A stretch of 43,024 bases of DNA from Desulfurococcaceae archaeon. Lineage in GTDB: Archaea; Thermoproteota; Thermoprotei_A; Sulfolobales; Desulfurococcaceae. The notes beneath the pieces are model-generated. The model saw only the letters and a program-made list of their open reading frames with translations. It was not told the origin of the DNA and searched no databases. Shown here piece by piece: positions 5,644-21,342 of this stretch. A program made the translations under genes and the position numbers. The stretch spans positions 1 through 43,024 of the forward strand of contig JAJHQS010000009.1 in the NCBI GenBank assembly GCA_020833225.1, in the 5' to 3' direction. The stretch's first letter is position 1. Every line of letters begins with the position of its first letter.

Positions 5644-6525
5644 TCACATCACCCCTGTTTTCTTAAGTGCTTCAAGTAGAGCTTCGCGAGTCAATAGCTT
5701 AGCCATGTATTGTCTATACTCAATAGGAGCTCTAACATCGCTAATTGGAGATATGTCGTATACTACTAGTTTCGAGGATTCTTCAATAATCTCAAGAGAT
5801 GGTTTCTTGCCAATAAGAGTTTTTTCTACATTCATAGCCCTTACAGGTATTGGAGCTACAGAGTTAAGAGCTAATCTCACATCTGAGATAACTCCTCCCT
5901 CAACTTTCACGACACATGCAACAGCAACTAATGATATATCATAACCCCTCCTCCTACCAACTTTAAAATATGAGTAACCTGAATTCTCTAAGTCCTTATA
6001 CGGTACGATTATTTCTGTAACTAACTCATCTCGTTCAAGAGCGGTTTGTCGAGGTCCCTTAAAGAACTCTCTTATTGGAATAAGCCTTGATCCTCTCACA
6101 CTCTCAGCTTTAATAATAGCCTCATATACTAGTAGTGGTGGTGCTGTGTCTGCTGCTGGTGATGCATTACAGAGGTTGCCACCTATAGTTGCAGTGTTTC
6201 TAATTTGCCAATACGCGAATTTCTCAGTGGCTGCCCTCAATAGTGGTGCTTTCTCAGCTATTATTTTTGAATCTAAAATTTCCTGAATAGTTGTAACTGC
6301 ACCTATGTGTAATGAACCATTATTGTCACGTATATATCTAAGCTCTTTTAAACCACCAATATAGACCACGTATTTAGGCTTAAACCTACCTGTCTTTAAA
6401 TCGACAACAAGATCTGTTCCACCAGCAAGCGCTTTCACATTGTTAAGTTTATTTATAAGTTCAAGCGCCTCTCTTAAGTCTACAGGAACTATGAACTCTA
6501 TGTCTTCAGGGATCACATACATCAT
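5644..6525 (-). CDS. Molybdenum hydroxylase FAD-binding subunit, set B
   Basis: FAD subunit of the second hydroxylase, with LAGGTDLV near residue 40 and TIGGNLCNASPAADT, both canonical. It has about the same length as the set A paralogue. ATG 6525 is chosen because AGGTG lies 6 nt upstream and the ATG overlaps the large-subunit stop as ATGA; an in-frame GTG at 6534 is less well placed. The segment coding NLCNASPAADT and the following residues is nearly identical in DNA to set A (see repeat entry), much more than the rest of the gene. Transfers electrons from the Fe-S subunit to FAD and on to an acceptor that cannot be inferred here. Confidence 0.92.
   Translation of the reverse strand: MMYVIPEDIEFIVPVDLREALELINKLNNVKALAGGTDLVVDLKTGRFKPKYVVYIGGLKELRYIRDNNGSLHIGAVTTIQEILDSKIIAEKAPLLRAATEKFAYWQIRNTATIGGNLCNASPAADTAPPLLVYEAIIKAESVRGSRLIPIREFFKGPRQTALERDELVTEIIVPYKDLENSGYSYFKVGRRRGYDISLVAVACVVKVEGGVISDVRLALNSVAPIPVRAMNVEKTLIGKKPSLEIIEESSKLVVYDISPISDVRAPIEYRQYMAKLLTREALLEALKKTGVM
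6124..6174. repeat. 51-nt segment shared with 2388-2438 (one mismatch)
   Basis: Partner of the near-identical tract in the set A FAD-subunit gene. The single difference falls at 6154 (T against C). See the first copy for interpretation. Confidence 0.75.
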
Positions 6526-14207: not shown

Positions 14208-14242
14208 AATTAGAATTAAAAACATTGTGTGGGGTGTTGTGT

Positions 14243-15025
14243 GTGGTTATTGTTAACGCTAAGTTATTGGAGGCGATTTTACCTAGTAATGAACTCCTAT
14301 TTAAAGCTTACAGGCTTATAGCAAGTGATTTTGAGGTTCAAACACTCTGGTATATGTCCAATATCATGGCTGTAAATAGACTTAAATACAACGATCACGG
14401 CCCGGTACACGCTCACATAGTAGCTGGCACAGCACTTTACCTTTACCAGCTGCTGAGAAGCAGAGGCGTTGAATCTACATTGATGAGAGATGGTGTTGTA
14501 GAGAATGAAGCGTATACATGGCTTATTCCACTTCTCGGGGGTCTACTACACGATATTGGTAATAGCGTTCATAGACACATGCATGAAGCTACTGGAGCAT
14601 TACTGGCAAAACCCATTATTGATAGAGTTCTAGAGAAGCTTATTGAAGAGCCTGCTATACGTATTAGAATTAGACAAGAAATAATGCATTCAATACACTG
14701 TACAAGTTACGATGTAGAATGCCTCACAATTGAAGCTGGGTGTGTTAAAGTTGCTGATGGATTAGATATGGCTGAAGGACGTGCACGAGTACCCTATAAG
14801 CTAGGGGGTGTCACAATACACAGCGTCTCAGCCCTAAGTATCAAGAAAGTTGAGATCATACCCTCTGATAAGAAGCCTATACGTGTAAATGTCTACATGT
14901 CTGAGAGAGCAGGTATTTTCCAAGTCGATGAAGTGCTTATGCCAAAACTAAATACTACGCCACTTAGAACTCTGTTAGAAATCTATATACTAGTTGAAAA
15001 TAACGTTTTAAAACATTACCCATGA
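14243..15025 (+). CDS. HD-domain metal-dependent phosphohydrolase, archaeal
   Basis: Protein of about 260 aa with an HD fold: a His near NDHGPVHAHIVAG, the HD pair in LLGGLLHDIGNSVHRHMHEA, a further His in IMHSIHCTSYD and the distal Asp in VADGLDMAEGRAR. HD proteins hydrolyse phosphomonoesters or phosphodiesters, including nucleotides and cyclic nucleotides. The substrate of this archaeal group is not known to me. GTG 14243 is chosen because GGGGTG lies 6 nt upstream; the frame is open to a TTG at 14225 that would overlap the neighbour's 5' region. It stands alone, divergent from the COG2426 gene. Confidence 0.85.
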   Translation: MVIVNAKLLEAILPSNELLFKAYRLIASDFEVQTLWYMSNIMAVNRLKYNDHGPVHAHIVAGTALYLYQLLRSRGVESTLMRDGVVENEAYTWLIPLLGGLLHDIGNSVHRHMHEATGALLAKPIIDRVLEKLIEEPAIRIRIRQEIMHSIHCTSYDVECLTIEAGCVKVADGLDMAEGRARVPYKLGGVTIHSVSALSIKKVEIIPSDKKPIRVNVYMSERAGIFQVDEVLMPKLNTTPLRTLLEIYILVENNVLKHYP

Positions 15026-15967: not shown

Positions 15968-17620
15968 CTAGCTTGTTTCAGGTGCTTCACGCCTTTTTCT
16001 CCTAATAGAGCTTTCAATGATGTTCTCCGAGATCTCAATTATTTTATTAAGACTCGATTCATCTAGCTTCTTGTACTTTTCTCTAGTAATATATATAGAT
16101 ATTAGTGCTTCTGGAATGAGACCATATTCTCTAGCGAATTCTTCAAATGTATATGACTGCTTATGTATTATTTTTCCGTCTTTTACTTCAACAACTTCTA
16201 GTGAATTTAATATTTCACCGCCAGCAGTTGGGTACACATCGATCTTGTCAATATATACTTCAATATCTCGTTCAGTTAGACCTTTACTGGAAAGAGTGTT
16301 TGCAACTTCTTCTTTAATTTCAGATTTTATGATTTCTTGTACTCGAGCTCCAATACTACTAAATAGTACTCTTGCTTCATTTAAATCATATGTAAATCTC
16401 TTTACAAGTTTCCAAAGGGGCTTTCTATGGTAGAAGAGGCTTTCAAGCGCTATTTTTGCAAGAACTTTATCTTCGCACTCATAGCTCGAAGACCCTTCTA
16501 CTAATAATTTTTGTAGCTCACTATATAGTGAACTATCTGTTAGCGTCATGTAGTTTATTAGTCCCTCGTGATTTTCAAGCATTTTTTCTAGTACACTTGA
16601 AATTCTAGACTTTATACATGGAAGTAGTATTCCTATAGTCTCTACGAAAGCTACATTTACTGGGTGTAAATAGACGTATTTGTACATTATTTTTCTAGCA
16701 TCTAGCAACCTAGCTATTTCATCGAGAGTTTTGGTTGCAACTGCAATTACTGGCATTGAGTTTTTCTCGATTACGTATGAATTTCTCATTATCCATTCAT
16801 CATTTATTTCTCCAATAGGTACTCCTGTAAAATAGCTATCTCTTTTCAAGTAGTCCATTATATCGCTTGTGTAAATATAGTCTCTCACTATTAGCCTTAC
16901 TATTAACTCTAAGCTACCACGCCCCTCTGAAGTGTAAAACTCGTTACTATTAATTACTCCACGCCGCATAAGGTCGGTGTACTTGATCATTCCTCTAGGC
17001 GGCATAATGCCTTTATCCAGTAATTCTAAAGTAAACTCTGGATCTAGTCTAAGAGAATTCATATTCTCTAATAACGCTTTCTCAATGAGATCTCTTAAAT
17101 AATCCCTATATATAATATAACTGAGTATCTCGTGGTTTCCCACAACATAACCTAGAAAATTCGCGTTACTCAATACGTATTTATCAAAAACATGGCTAAA
17201 TGGTCCATGTCCTATGTCGTGTAGTAGTCCAAGTAGTCTCGTTGCAAATATTAACTCTCTTTGTTTGTTAATAGTGATTTTTCTAACGTCTTCACTAAGA
17301 GCCCCCATGATAGCGACTGATCTGATCACGAATGAGACGTATTTATATGAAGAGTATAGTACCCCAAGTGAATGCGAGAATCGCGTATGTGATGCGCCAG
17401 GATATACAAAATGTGCTGCCTGTAACTGATATATGTATCTCAGTCTTTGTAGTACCCAAGAGTCCATTACAGCGCCTTCAAGCTCTTTAACATAGTCAAT
17501 ATAGCCGTAAATAGGATCTCTTACTTGAGCATTAAATGGCATGAAGAGATATGATATAAACTCCTCTTCACGAGTACCTAACGGTGTAGTAGACACGGGA
17601 GTATACACCTCACTGTGCAC
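15968..17620 (-). CDS. HD-superfamily phosphohydrolase, dGTPase/SAMHD1-like (COG1078)
   Basis: A 550-aa HD protein of the deoxynucleotide triphosphohydrolase-like family. The N-terminus has the recognisable RDPIYGYIDY and LRYIYQLQAAHFVYPGASHTRFSHSLGV (first His), then the HD pair in LLGLLHDIGHGPFSHVFD, with a distal Asp in YTSDIMDYLKRDSYFTGV. Family members cleave dNTPs or related nucleotides, but the archaeal substrate is not established. GTG 17620 has AGGGG 6 nt upstream, inside the end of the preceding zinc-ribbon gene, so the two genes are probably co-translated. The C-terminal 150 residues look like a helical accessory domain. Confidence 0.88.
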   Translation of the reverse strand: MHSEVYTPVSTTPLGTREEEFISYLFMPFNAQVRDPIYGYIDYVKELEGAVMDSWVLQRLRYIYQLQAAHFVYPGASHTRFSHSLGVLYSSYKYVSFVIRSVAIMGALSEDVRKITINKQRELIFATRLLGLLHDIGHGPFSHVFDKYVLSNANFLGYVVGNHEILSYIIYRDYLRDLIEKALLENMNSLRLDPEFTLELLDKGIMPPRGMIKYTDLMRRGVINSNEFYTSEGRGSLELIVRLIVRDYIYTSDIMDYLKRDSYFTGVPIGEINDEWIMRNSYVIEKNSMPVIAVATKTLDEIARLLDARKIMYKYVYLHPVNVAFVETIGILLPCIKSRISSVLEKMLENHEGLINYMTLTDSSLYSELQKLLVEGSSSYECEDKVLAKIALESLFYHRKPLWKLVKRFTYDLNEARVLFSSIGARVQEIIKSEIKEEVANTLSSKGLTERDIEVYIDKIDVYPTAGGEILNSLEVVEVKDGKIIHKQSYTFEEFAREYGLIPEALISIYITREKYKKLDESSLNKIIEISENIIESSIRRKRREAPETS

Positions 17621-18101: not shown

Positions 18102-18896
18102 TTACTTGTATGTGAGAAGTTTTATGAGTAAGTAGTATAGTGGTTTATCACCTATAACCAATAGTATTAGTAATCCGATTAGCATGTAAAATACATATGG
18201 CAACCCTGGAGTAATCCACAATATATAGTTCCTCGGAATTACTCCCTTCTCTATAAGCTCTACGACATGTTGTCTAGTGTTATCATCTAATCTTAGTAAA
18301 TTATATTCTTCGCGAATACCTTGCTCAGTATACTTAAATATTTGTAGAGGATAATAATGTCTGTATTTTGGATCCTCATAAAACTCGCCTGCTTTTACAG
18401 GTCTTGCTAAAAATAGGATAATGGCTCTGTATTTAAATGGTAATTGTTTTAATAGACTTCTATAGTGTAGAGTATTAAATAGACCTTGAAGAACAGACCA
18501 GAGTAGTGCTATGAGTGAAGCATAGAGTACAGCTACCAGTGCTGGTGGAATAATACCATATCTTACCAATGTAGCACCATAGACTGTGGGGTGATGTAGT
18601 GAGAGGCCTAGTGCAAGTGAGACGTAGACGTCGCCATCTCCGATAATTCCATACTTGTAGAGGATATAGAATACTCCTGGGGTAACTAATAGTGTTAGTG
18701 CTGTATAAACTAGGTATTCAACGATATTCACAATAGTGATCAAAGTTAAGGCGTAGAGTATTGATGAAAGTGAGAGGTACAAGTACACTATTTTACTATC
18801 TAACTCACGTGTCTTTAGATCCTCAAAGCCCAATATGGCTAAAAACAGTAGTGAGATGAACACCTTAATAAGGGCGAGAATAGTCTCTAACTCCAT
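18102..18896 (-). CDS. Archaeal A24 prepilin/prearchaellin peptidase (GxGD type)
   Basis: Multi-spanning membrane aspartic protease that removes class III signal peptides from pilins or archaellins. The two catalytic aspartates are visible: one in the first loop (FEDLKTRELDSKIV) and one in the GxGD motif (GIIGDGDVYVSLALG). About seven hydrophobic segments; a long cytoplasmic loop of about 80 residues separates the catalytic core from the last membrane pair (FYMLIGLLILLVIG), larger than in FlaK/PibD of about 230 aa. ATG 18896 is preferred over the TTG two codons earlier. No pilin or archaellin gene is adjacent, so the substrates lie elsewhere. Confidence 0.88.
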   Translation of the reverse strand: MELETILALIKVFISLLFLAILGFEDLKTRELDSKIVYLYLSLSSILYALTLITIVNIVEYLVYTALTLLVTPGVFYILYKYGIIGDGDVYVSLALGLSLHHPTVYGATLVRYGIIPPALVAVLYASLIALLWSVLQGLFNTLHYRSLLKQLPFKYRAIILFLARPVKAGEFYEDPKYRHYYPLQIFKYTEQGIREEYNLLRLDDNTRQHVVELIEKGVIPRNYILWITPGLPYVFYMLIGLLILLVIGDKPLYYLLIKLLTYK

Positions 18897-18995
18897 TATC
18901 AAACTAATATTCAGCGTGTAACCACCTCTTCACAGTCAACACTACCACTCAGGACTCCCCGAGACTTCATCACAACTATTAAGGTATTATGGGGT

Positions 18996-19670
18996 TTGCT
19001 CTTTTATCAATTTTTTACTTACGGATTTCTCTGTGGGGTCTTATTGGGATGTACATTACTTTCACTTTTAAGGTTTTCACGTAGTAGTGTTAATAGTGAT
19101 GTTGCTGGGTTAAAGAGGCAGATAGAAGAGTTTAGTAAAGAGTTAAGAGAAGTAAAAGACACTACAAATATGCTAGCTGACAAAGTAGATAAACTTGCTA
19201 AATCTCTAAGTGAGCTTTCAAAAGAGGTAAGTAAACTCAGTGATGTGGTTGGTTTTGTAGTTGAAGATGTAGCGAGAATGCTACTTCCATTTTGGCTGAG
19301 CAGATATATGGGTATTAAAGTTGAGAATTTAAATAGGGCTTTTTTTGAACGTGAGGGGAGGATAGTTGAGGTAGATCTCTTTGGCGAGGGTATTGATGAA
19401 AAAAATGGAGGTAAAGTATTAATTATTGGTGAAGTTAAATCTAGAATTCACGGAAATGACGTAAAGACTTTTCACGAGAAAACAATTAAACTACTAGAGG
19501 AGTTGAAAGAAACTAGAACACCGCTTCTAATAATATTCGGACTCTACACACATCCAACTGCAGAAATGGAAGCTAAACGTAGAGGAGTACTATTAGTAAC
19601 ACCATATAACATAGTGTGGAATATTAATAGCCGAGAACAATGTGAAATAATACGGTCACCATCAGATTAA
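18996..19670 (+). CDS. Membrane-anchored coiled-coil protein with PD-(D/E)XK nuclease-like domain
   Basis: A 224-aa protein in three parts: an N-terminal membrane helix (about residues 5-26), a long heptad-rich coiled coil (about 34-90, many K/E/L positions such as KRQIEEFSKELREVKD), and a C-terminal domain with a PD-(D/E)XK pattern, EVDLFGEG (Asp127) followed by GEVKSR (Glu146, Lys148). This fold is shared by restriction and repair nucleases, but many archaeal coiled-coil members of this type are uncharacterised. TTG start with AAGGT upstream. It stands immediately before the rod-like RNA element on the same strand. DNA cleavage is an inference from the motif only. Confidence 0.78.
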   Translation: MLFYQFFTYGFLCGVLLGCTLLSLLRFSRSSVNSDVAGLKRQIEEFSKELREVKDTTNMLADKVDKLAKSLSELSKEVSKLSDVVGFVVEDVARMLLPFWLSRYMGIKVENLNRAFFEREGRIVEVDLFGEGIDEKNGGKVLIIGEVKSRIHGNDVKTFHEKTIKLLEELKETRTPLLIIFGLYTHPTAEMEAKRRGVLLVTPYNIVWNINSREQCEIIRSPSD

Positions 19671-19760
19671 AATGTATTACTTGAACAAATAGTGTACAAA
19701 AATATAATCTTTAAAAACATGTAGAATGACTAATGAAAACTAATTATACAAAACAGAAGG

Positions 19761-19766
19761 CTTAAA
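19761..19766 (+). promoter_or_regulatory. TATA-like box for the rod-shaped RNA
   Basis: CTTAAA preceded by purine-rich AGAAGG (BRE-like), centred about 26 bases before the first paired base of the hairpin. This is the spacing expected if transcription starts at the base of the stem. Confidence 0.45.
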
Positions 19767-19789: not shown

Positions 19790-19980
19790 TTGGTACGCCG
19801 GGGCCTAGACCCGGCCTATAAGTGTATAGGTATAAACAACCCGGTACACGTGTTAACCGGTATCGTGGTGGTATCTGGCTCGGGATAACCGAGTCAGGTA
19901 CTATCACGATACTAGGTTACACGTGTGCTGAGTTGTTTATACCTATACACTTATAGGTAGGGGATAACCCGGCGTACCAA
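19790..19980 (+). ncRNA. 191-nt rod-like structured RNA candidate
   Basis: A GC-rich island in AT-rich DNA that folds on itself end to end. Helices: 19790-19802 with 19968-19980 (13 bp, perfect); 19815-19840 with 19932-19957 (26 bp, perfect); 19842-19853 with 19919-19930 (12 bp); 19855-19858 with 19915-19918 (4 bp); 19859-19883 with 19889-19913 (25 bp); terminal loop GATAA. That is 80 pairs with one mismatch, two single-base bulges and one 12 x 10 internal loop. Seven pairs are G.U on this strand and only the single C/A mismatch would be G.U on the other, which argues for plus-strand RNA. It is not tRNA, SRP RNA or RNase P RNA by any motif I can see. A mobile inverted-repeat element is the main alternative. 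Confidence 0.75.
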
Positions 19981-20018: not shown

Positions 20019-20492
20019 TTACTTGAATCTTCCAATTTCAACTAGGTTGTTTGGCCACGGTGCTAAAGTGTATTTTTCTAACCACTCTTCGTTTAGATTG
20101 AGCGTTTTTACGGTTTCTATAATTTTCTTAACAATATTTATTGATATTTTTTCTTCTCTTACTGCGGGACAATCTAAGTCAAGGTAAATAACTTTCTCGC
20201 GTGTTTTAAAGTCTAAGTAAACCATAATAGGCCAAAGTCTACAGTCTAGCGGCCTTTTACTATATATTGTACAGCGCCCTCTTTCATCTAGATAAGGGCA
20301 AGGTTGTCCGCCTCTAGACCCAATACATTTAACAGGACCTTTTTCAGTTATAATAGTAAAAGACTTATCATTAAAGTCCTCTTCCTCTTCTGGTAGGAGC
20401 ACTGCATAAAATCTTCTACAGCAATTTTGAATACACGAGGAGCAGATGTCTCCGAAATTTACAAAGTCAAGCTTATATGCGAGCCTACTCAT
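20019..20492 (-). CDS. YkgJ-family cysteine-cluster protein
   Basis: A protein of about 157 aa with the cysteine pattern of the YkgJ/UPF0153 family: CSSCIQNCC near the N-terminus, then CIGSRGGQPCPYLDERGRCTIYSKRPLDCRLWPIM. Such proteins bind a metal or Fe-S cluster through these cysteines; their reaction is unknown. ATG 20492 is chosen because AAAGGAG lies 5 nt upstream; the frame is open to an ATG at 20516. Its 3' end lies close to the rod-like RNA, in convergent orientation, and no clear operon partner is present. Confidence 0.85.
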   Translation of the reverse strand: MSRLAYKLDFVNFGDICSSCIQNCCRRFYAVLLPEEEEDFNDKSFTIITEKGPVKCIGSRGGQPCPYLDERGRCTIYSKRPLDCRLWPIMVYLDFKTREKVIYLDLDCPAVREEKISINIVKKIIETVKTLNLNEEWLEKYTLAPWPNNLVEIGRFK

Positions 20493-20565
20493 AGCTACTC
20501 CTTTGATTAATACCATTATTAGCTTTTAAGTACAGAGTTTATAAATAACAAGGGGTTTCTTTAGT

Positions 20566-20692: not shown

Positions 20693-20795
20693 GTCTCGAT
20701 ATTCTACGAGCTTTTTGATTTTAAATTTTCCCCTTAAATAGTAGAATTTATTAGACACTATTAACTTAACTCTAATTGTGAAGGAAGGTGTTATA

Positions 20796-21050
20796 ATGTT
20801 TGCATTACTATTAGTGTCAGCATTCATAATTATACTATTAGGTATGTTGCTTATAGTGTTCTCGATGCTTAAAGAAACTGAGCATGGTGAAAAGAAAGTT
20901 GAAGGTGGAGGTGTTTTAATTATAGGTCCATTACCAATTATTATAGGTACTAGTGAGAGGATCACTAAAGCACTCATAATATTAGCATTAGTGTTATTAA
21001 TATTTTCACTATTAGTTTTCTTAACATTTACAGGTTATTTAAAATGGTGA
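20796..21050 (+). CDS. DUF131/TIGR00304-type small membrane protein, copy 1
   Basis: An 84-aa protein with two membrane helices flanking a short loop with the family signature GGGVLIIGPLPIIIGTSE. It is an archaeal family of unknown function, and family members are about this size. ATG 20796 is chosen because AAGGAAGGTG lies 5 nt upstream; the frame is open to a GTG at 20778. The next gene starts 7 bases after its stop and codes a diverged paralogue, so the two probably form a heteromeric membrane pair. Upstream region carries a strong inverted repeat. Confidence 0.8.
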   Translation: MFALLLVSAFIIILLGMLLIVFSMLKETEHGEKKVEGGGVLIIGPLPIIIGTSERITKALIILALVLLIFSLLVFLTFTGYLKW

Positions 21051-21057
21051 AAAGAAC

Positions 21058-21342
21058 TTGAAGCTCTTTAAGCTGGGGTTACTCTTAATCTTCATTGGCA
21101 TAGCTTTAGCTTTTATGGCGGCAATACTACCATTAATGCTAGTAGGTTTTGAAACTAGTAGGATTAATGTTACAGGTGGTGGTTGTATCATAGTATTTTT
21201 TATACCAATATGTTTTGGCGTTGGCGAACAAGCTACACAAGCATTATTATTAGCAGTAGTCCTAGTAATAATACTAGTGGCAGTAATATTACTATTCAAT
21301 ACCTGGATCTTAAAAAGTACAAAACAAGTACAAGGCATCTAA
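21058..21342 (+). CDS. DUF131-type small membrane protein, copy 2
   Basis: A 94-aa paralogue of the preceding gene: two membrane helices around GGGCIIVFFIPICFGVGE, which aligns with GGGVLIIGPLPIIIGTSE of copy 1 but has lost the IGPLPI core and gained two cysteines. TTG start with GGTGA (inside the copy 1 stop region) 7 nt upstream, so translation is coupled. Function unknown. Likely the diverged half of a tandem duplication. Confidence 0.75.
   Translation: MKLFKLGLLLIFIGIALAFMAAILPLMLVGFETSRINVTGGGCIIVFFIPICFGVGEQATQALLLAVVLVIILVAVILLFNTWILKSTKQVQGI

Follow-up and report, generated by a model that had tools for sequence, protein, structure and literature searches.

A conserved rod-like RNA encoded beside a coiled-coil, nuclease-like protein in a Desulfurococcaceae archaeon and its relatives

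The DNA analyzed here, hereafter the window, is a stretch of 43,024 nucleotides from a Desulfurococcaceae archaeon (contig JAJHQS010000009.1 of assembly GCA_020833225.1). It contains a predicted gene for a rod-like RNA, located directly downstream of a gene for a coiled-coil protein that resembles PD-(D/E)XK nucleases. The rod had been proposed in a first-pass annotation as a conserved RNA gene and possibly a new class of non-coding RNA, and its constant link to the nuclease gene upstream had been overlooked there. The features of the RNA gene and its partner are as follows.

18996 to 19670, plus strand: partner gene, with an uncertain start codon, for a 224-residue coiled-coil and PD-(D/E)XK nuclease-like protein
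19672 to 19687, plus strand: element ATGTATTACTTGAACA, after the nuclease stop codon and before the RNA promoter
19744 to 19754, plus strand: element TTATACAAAAC, just 5' of the TATA-like box, marked by its position and conservation
19761 to 19766, plus strand: TATA-like box CTTAAA of the RNA gene
19790 to 19980, plus strand: rod RNA of 191 nucleotides (nt), a predicted transcript with its 5' end near 19790, based on fold z-score, nine homologs and covariation
19791 to 19802, plus strand: 5' strand of the basal stem, pairing with 19968-19979 in the minimum free energy (MFE) structure
19803 to 19812, plus strand: 5' strand of the internal loop near the base (GCCUAGA), with the CCC whose partner is GGG at 19960-19962, from the alignment and motif table
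19884 to 19888, plus strand: apical loop GAUAA, closed by CGG/CCG
19960 to 19967, plus strand: 3' strand of the internal loop near the base, GGG-GAUAA, from invariant alignment columns and the motif table

The rod lies in an intergenic stretch, where no open reading frame of at least 60 residues overlaps it, and forms a real GC-rich island, with 49% G+C against approximately 30-36% in most of the adjoining DNA. Folding of 19790-19980 (plus strand) yielded a single unbranched rod with 85 predicted pairs, eight of them G.U, and an MFE of -146.8 kcal/mol. None of 200 shuffled sequences reached this value (mean -61.2, standard deviation 4.6; z -18.8), and the MFE of the minus strand is just -116.9 kcal/mol. 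The end-to-end rod, the GC-rich island and the GATAA end loop described in the first-pass annotation were thus all recovered. The 12 x 10 internal loop described there is also present, but it is not fully open, being partly paired in the model, where GCCUAGA and GAUAA flank a CCC/GGG helix. The G.U asymmetry reported there (seven against one) was nearly reproduced, with eight G.U pairs versus two A.C mismatches in a strand-neutral pairing; in this sequence alone such a difference lacks significance (p 0.11), so the claim drawn from it needs weakening.

In 61 relatives, a plain DNA search yielded no more than marginal matches, two of which adjoin the same gene as in the window. After this search had proved weak, homologs were found by synteny and folding, and folding of the DNA 3' of the nuclease ortholog gave a rod each time in five genomes of the same genus (G002, G004, G005, G006 and G007). 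The search of relatives with a covariance model that the first-pass annotation had recommended was also carried out: a model built from the six genus sequences was searched through the family and order, with E-values from a short calibration, and retrieved three more rods. All three are from Thermogladius and, like the nuclease gene there, lie on the minus strand, and one of the carriers (G025) is a complete genome of 1,356,318 bases. The gene strands of these rods fold at -144 to -152 kcal/mol, compared with -88 to -100 kcal/mol for the opposite strands. As a result, rods of 176-191 nt are present in six of the eight genomes of the genus and in three of the four Thermogladius genomes. The homolog sample therefore consists of nine genomes in two genera, mostly metagenome assemblies.

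Selection on the structure is evident in these homologs. Covariation was counted within each genus, since the stems were too poorly aligned when MAFFT was applied to all nine sequences from the two genera. In the genus alignment, one or more compensatory double changes were seen at 46 of the 66 tested stem pairs, with 91% of the cells paired. None of 500 shuffles was as good, and sliding the partner by 1-3 columns left 33-45% of the cells paired and 9-18 double-change pairs. The three Thermogladius sequences contribute 16 further double-change pairs. Pooling the nine homologs gave 103 G.U pairs against 29 A.C mismatches, a count for which the pooled p is only indicative since the sequences are related, and the plus strand is more stable than the minus strand in all nine. 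Judged by these compensatory changes, a genuinely conserved structured RNA is strongly supported, in line with the first-pass annotation.

The ends of the rod are conserved and its middle varies freely. The 3' motif GGGGnUAA or GGGGUAA is kept in all nine homologs, CCYAG-(A)-CCC at the 5' side of the basal loop is kept in most of the genus, and the tip loop is GAUAA, GNRA-like or GNNAA in eight homologs and AAAA in the other. The distance from the apical loop to the conserved basal UAA is 73-79 nt throughout. Because the ends are conserved and the length is constant, these patterns suggest that what is recognized is the rod ends at a fixed spacing. The 9-mer GGGATAACC is common to the apical hairpin (19880-19890) and the basal 3' strand (19958-19970) of the window, that is, to both rod ends, and this likeness is weaker in the other homologs.

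No covariance model of Rfam 15 matched the window at the gathering threshold, which supports the suggestion of a new class. Sub-threshold matches to rncO and various microRNAs were rejected as hairpin look-alikes of the sort that any long hairpin gives. No transfer RNA was found, and the sole match to signal recognition particle (SRP) RNA (RF01857) lies elsewhere in the genome (C15:57758-58047), in agreement with the earlier statement that neither fits; archaeal SRP RNA, which is also elongated and structured, is thus a separate locus here. Many dispersed copies, which the first-pass annotation had named as the sign of a mobile repeat, are not seen: the rod occurs once in the genome, and an identity as a repeat or a miniature inverted-repeat transposable element was rejected. 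Literature searches on Thermogladius small RNA, DUF3782 and COG5493 turned up no report of the RNA.

The region upstream of the rod carries conserved elements. The CTTAAA box pointed out in the first-pass annotation is located ~26-27 nt before the first pair, and a TATA-like box is kept ~25-34 nt before the stem across the genus homologs. All six genus members have ATACAAAAC or TTACAAAAC before it, and a similar ATATGCAAAA(C) stretch precedes two Thermogladius rods; the TTATACAAAAC-type pattern is not enriched across the window, so that only its position and conservation count. Further upstream, ATGYATTAYTYGAACA (the element at 19672-19687) has exactly one match in each of the five genomes searched, each time in the interval from the stop codon of the nuclease gene to the promoter of the RNA. 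Because of the conserved box and upstream elements, the rod RNA looks like a transcription unit of its own. In the window, ATGTATTACTTGAACA followed by ATACA/GTACA (19672-19700) constitutes an interrupted inverted repeat, which in G004 reads TGTATTA...TAATACA; it may serve as an operator, or form a small hairpin at the nuclease 3' end.

The partner protein has a putative active site of E125, D127, E146 and K148, all invariant in an alignment of nine orthologs. Its AlphaFold model (mean predicted local distance difference test score 76.9) best matches the PDB folds of EndoMS/NucS and the Cas4-like SSO0001 (Foldseek E 2e-3, probability 1.00). These top matches are PD-(D/E)XK enzymes and, with D127, E146 and K148 invariant as the D...E-x-K residues, give moderate support for membership in the PD-(D/E)XK superfamily. 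Its dN/dS (the ratio of nonsynonymous to synonymous substitution rates) is ~0.17 in two pairs of relatives, indicating a functional protein. Scans with Pfam, NCBIfam and PADLOC detected only a coiled coil and weak matches below the cut-offs to PDDEXK_10 (16.6 of 21.2 bits) and DUF3782 (16.9 of 24.4 bits), and nothing of the ToxN, CptN, TenpN or Abi_2 type. The archaeal and bacterial coiled-coil PD-(D/E)XK proteins of COG5493/PF07788 (DUF1626, PDDEXK_10) with PF12644 (DUF3782) likewise combine an N-terminal coiled coil with a C-terminal nuclease-like domain; distant relatives of the partner protein show no rod. DUF1626/COG5493 proteins are described as nuclease-like with N-terminal coiled coils, and the section on DUF1626 mentions no RNA partner (PMC1913061). 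No relatives of the nuclease were found in viral, plasmid and phage collections, and neither these nor Rfam or PADLOC gave a match.

The RNA is located directly 3' of the orthologous nuclease gene, on the same strand, in nine of nine genomes. In the sample of the order, nuclease orthologs (E < 1e-85) occur in eight genomes, all with the RNA, and the ninth pair was read directly in G063. Both the nuclease ortholog and the RNA are absent from G003 (95% complete), G014 (99%) and G001 (78%), and in G003 the pair was probably lost together. The pair occupies four neighborhoods: between the peptidase A24 and CxxCxxCC genes (window and G005), before an amidohydrolase gene (G002 and G007), near a phosphoribosyltransferase-like gene (G004 and G006), and between nucleotidyltransferase-like and Mre11-like genes (Thermogladius). 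The genes flanking the pair in the window are listed below.

18102 to 18902, minus strand: left flanking gene, prepilin peptidase A24 (Pfam), adjoining the right flanking gene where the site is empty
20019 to 20516, minus strand: right flanking gene, CxxCxxCC protein (Pfam and empty-site comparison)

In G002 and G007 the peptidase A24 and CxxCxxCC genes are immediate neighbors, revealing an empty site, and no target-site duplication was recognized by eye at its junctions. The nuclease tree broadly agrees with the trees of two other genes, so the pair appears to be mainly inherited vertically, while having changed place. Two further observations concern these neighborhoods. In Thermogladius (L112, 1-8551), the pair directly precedes Mre11-like and NurA genes; with the two genes that come next, these probably make up a cluster for DNA-end processing. 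Just after the rod of G004 lies a GC-rich palindrome, AGCTTCGCCTTTCAAGGCGGGGAGGAGG (L051, 1080-1135), which we presume to resemble the ends of IS200/IS605-type elements.

A functional RNA-nuclease pair is likely, given that the gene order is fixed and that the two genes are absent together and relocated together. The RNA gene and its pairing with the nuclease are strongly supported, and a mechanism, including transcription, direct binding, and inhibition over activation, is what we infer. In the proposed mechanism, the RNA and the nuclease encoded just 5' of it would constitute a two-gene module. The RNA product would be a stiff hairpin of ~70-80 base pairs with a conserved basal internal-loop motif and a GNRA-like or GAUAA tip, and would serve as the dedicated ligand of the nuclease, with one or more subunits joined by their coiled coils binding the rod, probably by contacts with its conserved ends, set a fixed distance apart. 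The RNA might hold the nuclease inactive, or position it, until a trigger arrives. Our leading explanation, still tentative, is that an independently transcribed RNA binds and controls the neighboring nuclease, as in RNA-antitoxin and RNA-nuclease modules. In the AbiF system, the neighboring RNA RCd22 binds and neutralizes the protein (PMC12373285), and by analogy with this and with RNA-antitoxin modules we favor a restraining role, with a scaffolding or activating role as its main rival.

The likeness to type III toxin-antitoxin systems (ToxIN, CptIN) and AbiF/RCd22 lies in the combination of a nuclease-family protein with a small structured RNA that has its own promoter; the characteristic pairing of a small RNA gene with the gene of a nuclease-family protein was found for all nine homologs. 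However, several points weigh against regulation of this kind. In type III and AbiF systems, the proteins are of unrelated families and the RNA lies upstream; it is short, built of repeats or pseudoknotted, or bears abiF motifs, whereas here a single, unrepeated rod of ~80 base pairs lies downstream. The gene tree follows the species tree, and the frequent horizontal transfer typical of toxin-antitoxin and defense modules is not evident. Nine genomes in two genera are a narrow base. In addition, the more remote relatives of the protein found in ~25 other genomes of the phylum (E < 1e-30) had no comparable rod in any of the 15 neighborhoods folded, and the protein family therefore does not generally need the rod; a structured stretch beside one of them (L088) was rejected as a rod, being a branched fold. 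We do not assign the pair to the type III toxin-antitoxin, AbiF or OMEGA systems, which differ from it in protein family, in gene order and in the architecture of the RNA. An archaeal system new in kind, in which a near-perfect double-stranded RNA rod of fixed length serves a PD-(D/E)XK nuclease as its dedicated regulator or scaffold and both genes are moved and lost as a unit, is in our judgment an evenly balanced proposal.

The strongest rival, though an unlikely one, is that the RNA is the working subunit of a ribonucleoprotein, within which it would activate, scaffold or aim the nuclease, as a double-stranded RNA scaffold might do by aligning several coiled-coil nucleases in a repair or defense complex. 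The same co-occurrence and relocation speak for it, a constrained rod length is what a ruler or scaffold should have, and the Thermogladius pair lies beside Mre11-like and NurA genes. An RNA gene adjoining a nuclease gene is also typical of OMEGA/HEARO systems (IsrB, IscB and TnpB with omega RNA), in which, as here, the pair of structured RNA and nuclease changes neighborhoods. Nevertheless, those systems have RuvC/HNH nucleases and a guide, whereas the present protein, with its PD-(D/E)XK fold, is unlike RNA-guided nucleases, and the rod is paired end to end, with no free guide segment, no target-like variable sequence and no transposon ends identified.

Two further explanations seem to us improbable. 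The hairpin might be the 3' end of the nuclease mRNA, a cis-acting stabilizer or terminator with no separate role, as its position ~120 nt past the stop codon on the same strand, and similarly near in the homologs, would permit. Against this, a conserved TATA-like box and upstream elements stand right before the rod, protection or termination needs no fixed-length rod of 80 base pairs with conserved loop motifs, and archaeal terminators are U-tracts. Just as improbably, the RNA might act in trans without the nuclease, for instance as a 6S-like decoy for a protein that binds double-stranded RNA or polymerase, with the gene order incidental. Bacterial 6S RNA is a long, rod-like regulatory RNA of similar size, and the long shape and independent promoter of the rod would fit such a role, but the co-absence of RNA and nuclease in G003 and G014 and their joint occurrence in four neighborhoods speak for a partnership; 6S RNA moreover has a large central bubble that mimics an open promoter, whereas the center of the rod is fully paired and no Rfam match was found. 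A DNA-level element, with the inverted repeat as a cruciform, nuclease recognition site or mobile-element end, is very improbable, for in spite of the different sites (one seen empty) and the adjoining nuclease, G.U pairs outnumber A.C mismatches by 103 to 29, the plus strand is the more stable in nine of nine, the copy is single, no target-site duplication was recognized by eye, and the nuclease phylogeny follows the genomes.

Elsewhere in the window, two 89-bp stretches that are 85% alike (2383-2471 and 6119-6207) lie 3736 bases apart, and further, weaker repeats recur at this spacing, as from a tandem gene duplication. Two tandem genes for small membrane proteins, the first matching DUF131, are located at 20778-21342, and two genes for HD-domain proteins lie close together on opposite strands (14225-15025 and 15968-17620).

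In summary, to our knowledge no known RNA family is a rod of ~80 base pairs whose length stays constant while most of its letters change, and we know of no member of the PD-(D/E)XK superfamily that works with a private RNA. The rod RNA and its nuclease are probably a previously undescribed pair working together. Thermogladius is a cultivated genus with the pair, so its transcription and binding are open to direct testing. Why an archaeon should make a long double-stranded RNA is a further question posed by the pair, and, if true, its fixed partnership with a PD-(D/E)XK protein would bring a functionally uncharacterized protein family, widespread in archaea, under the concept of RNA-controlled nucleases.
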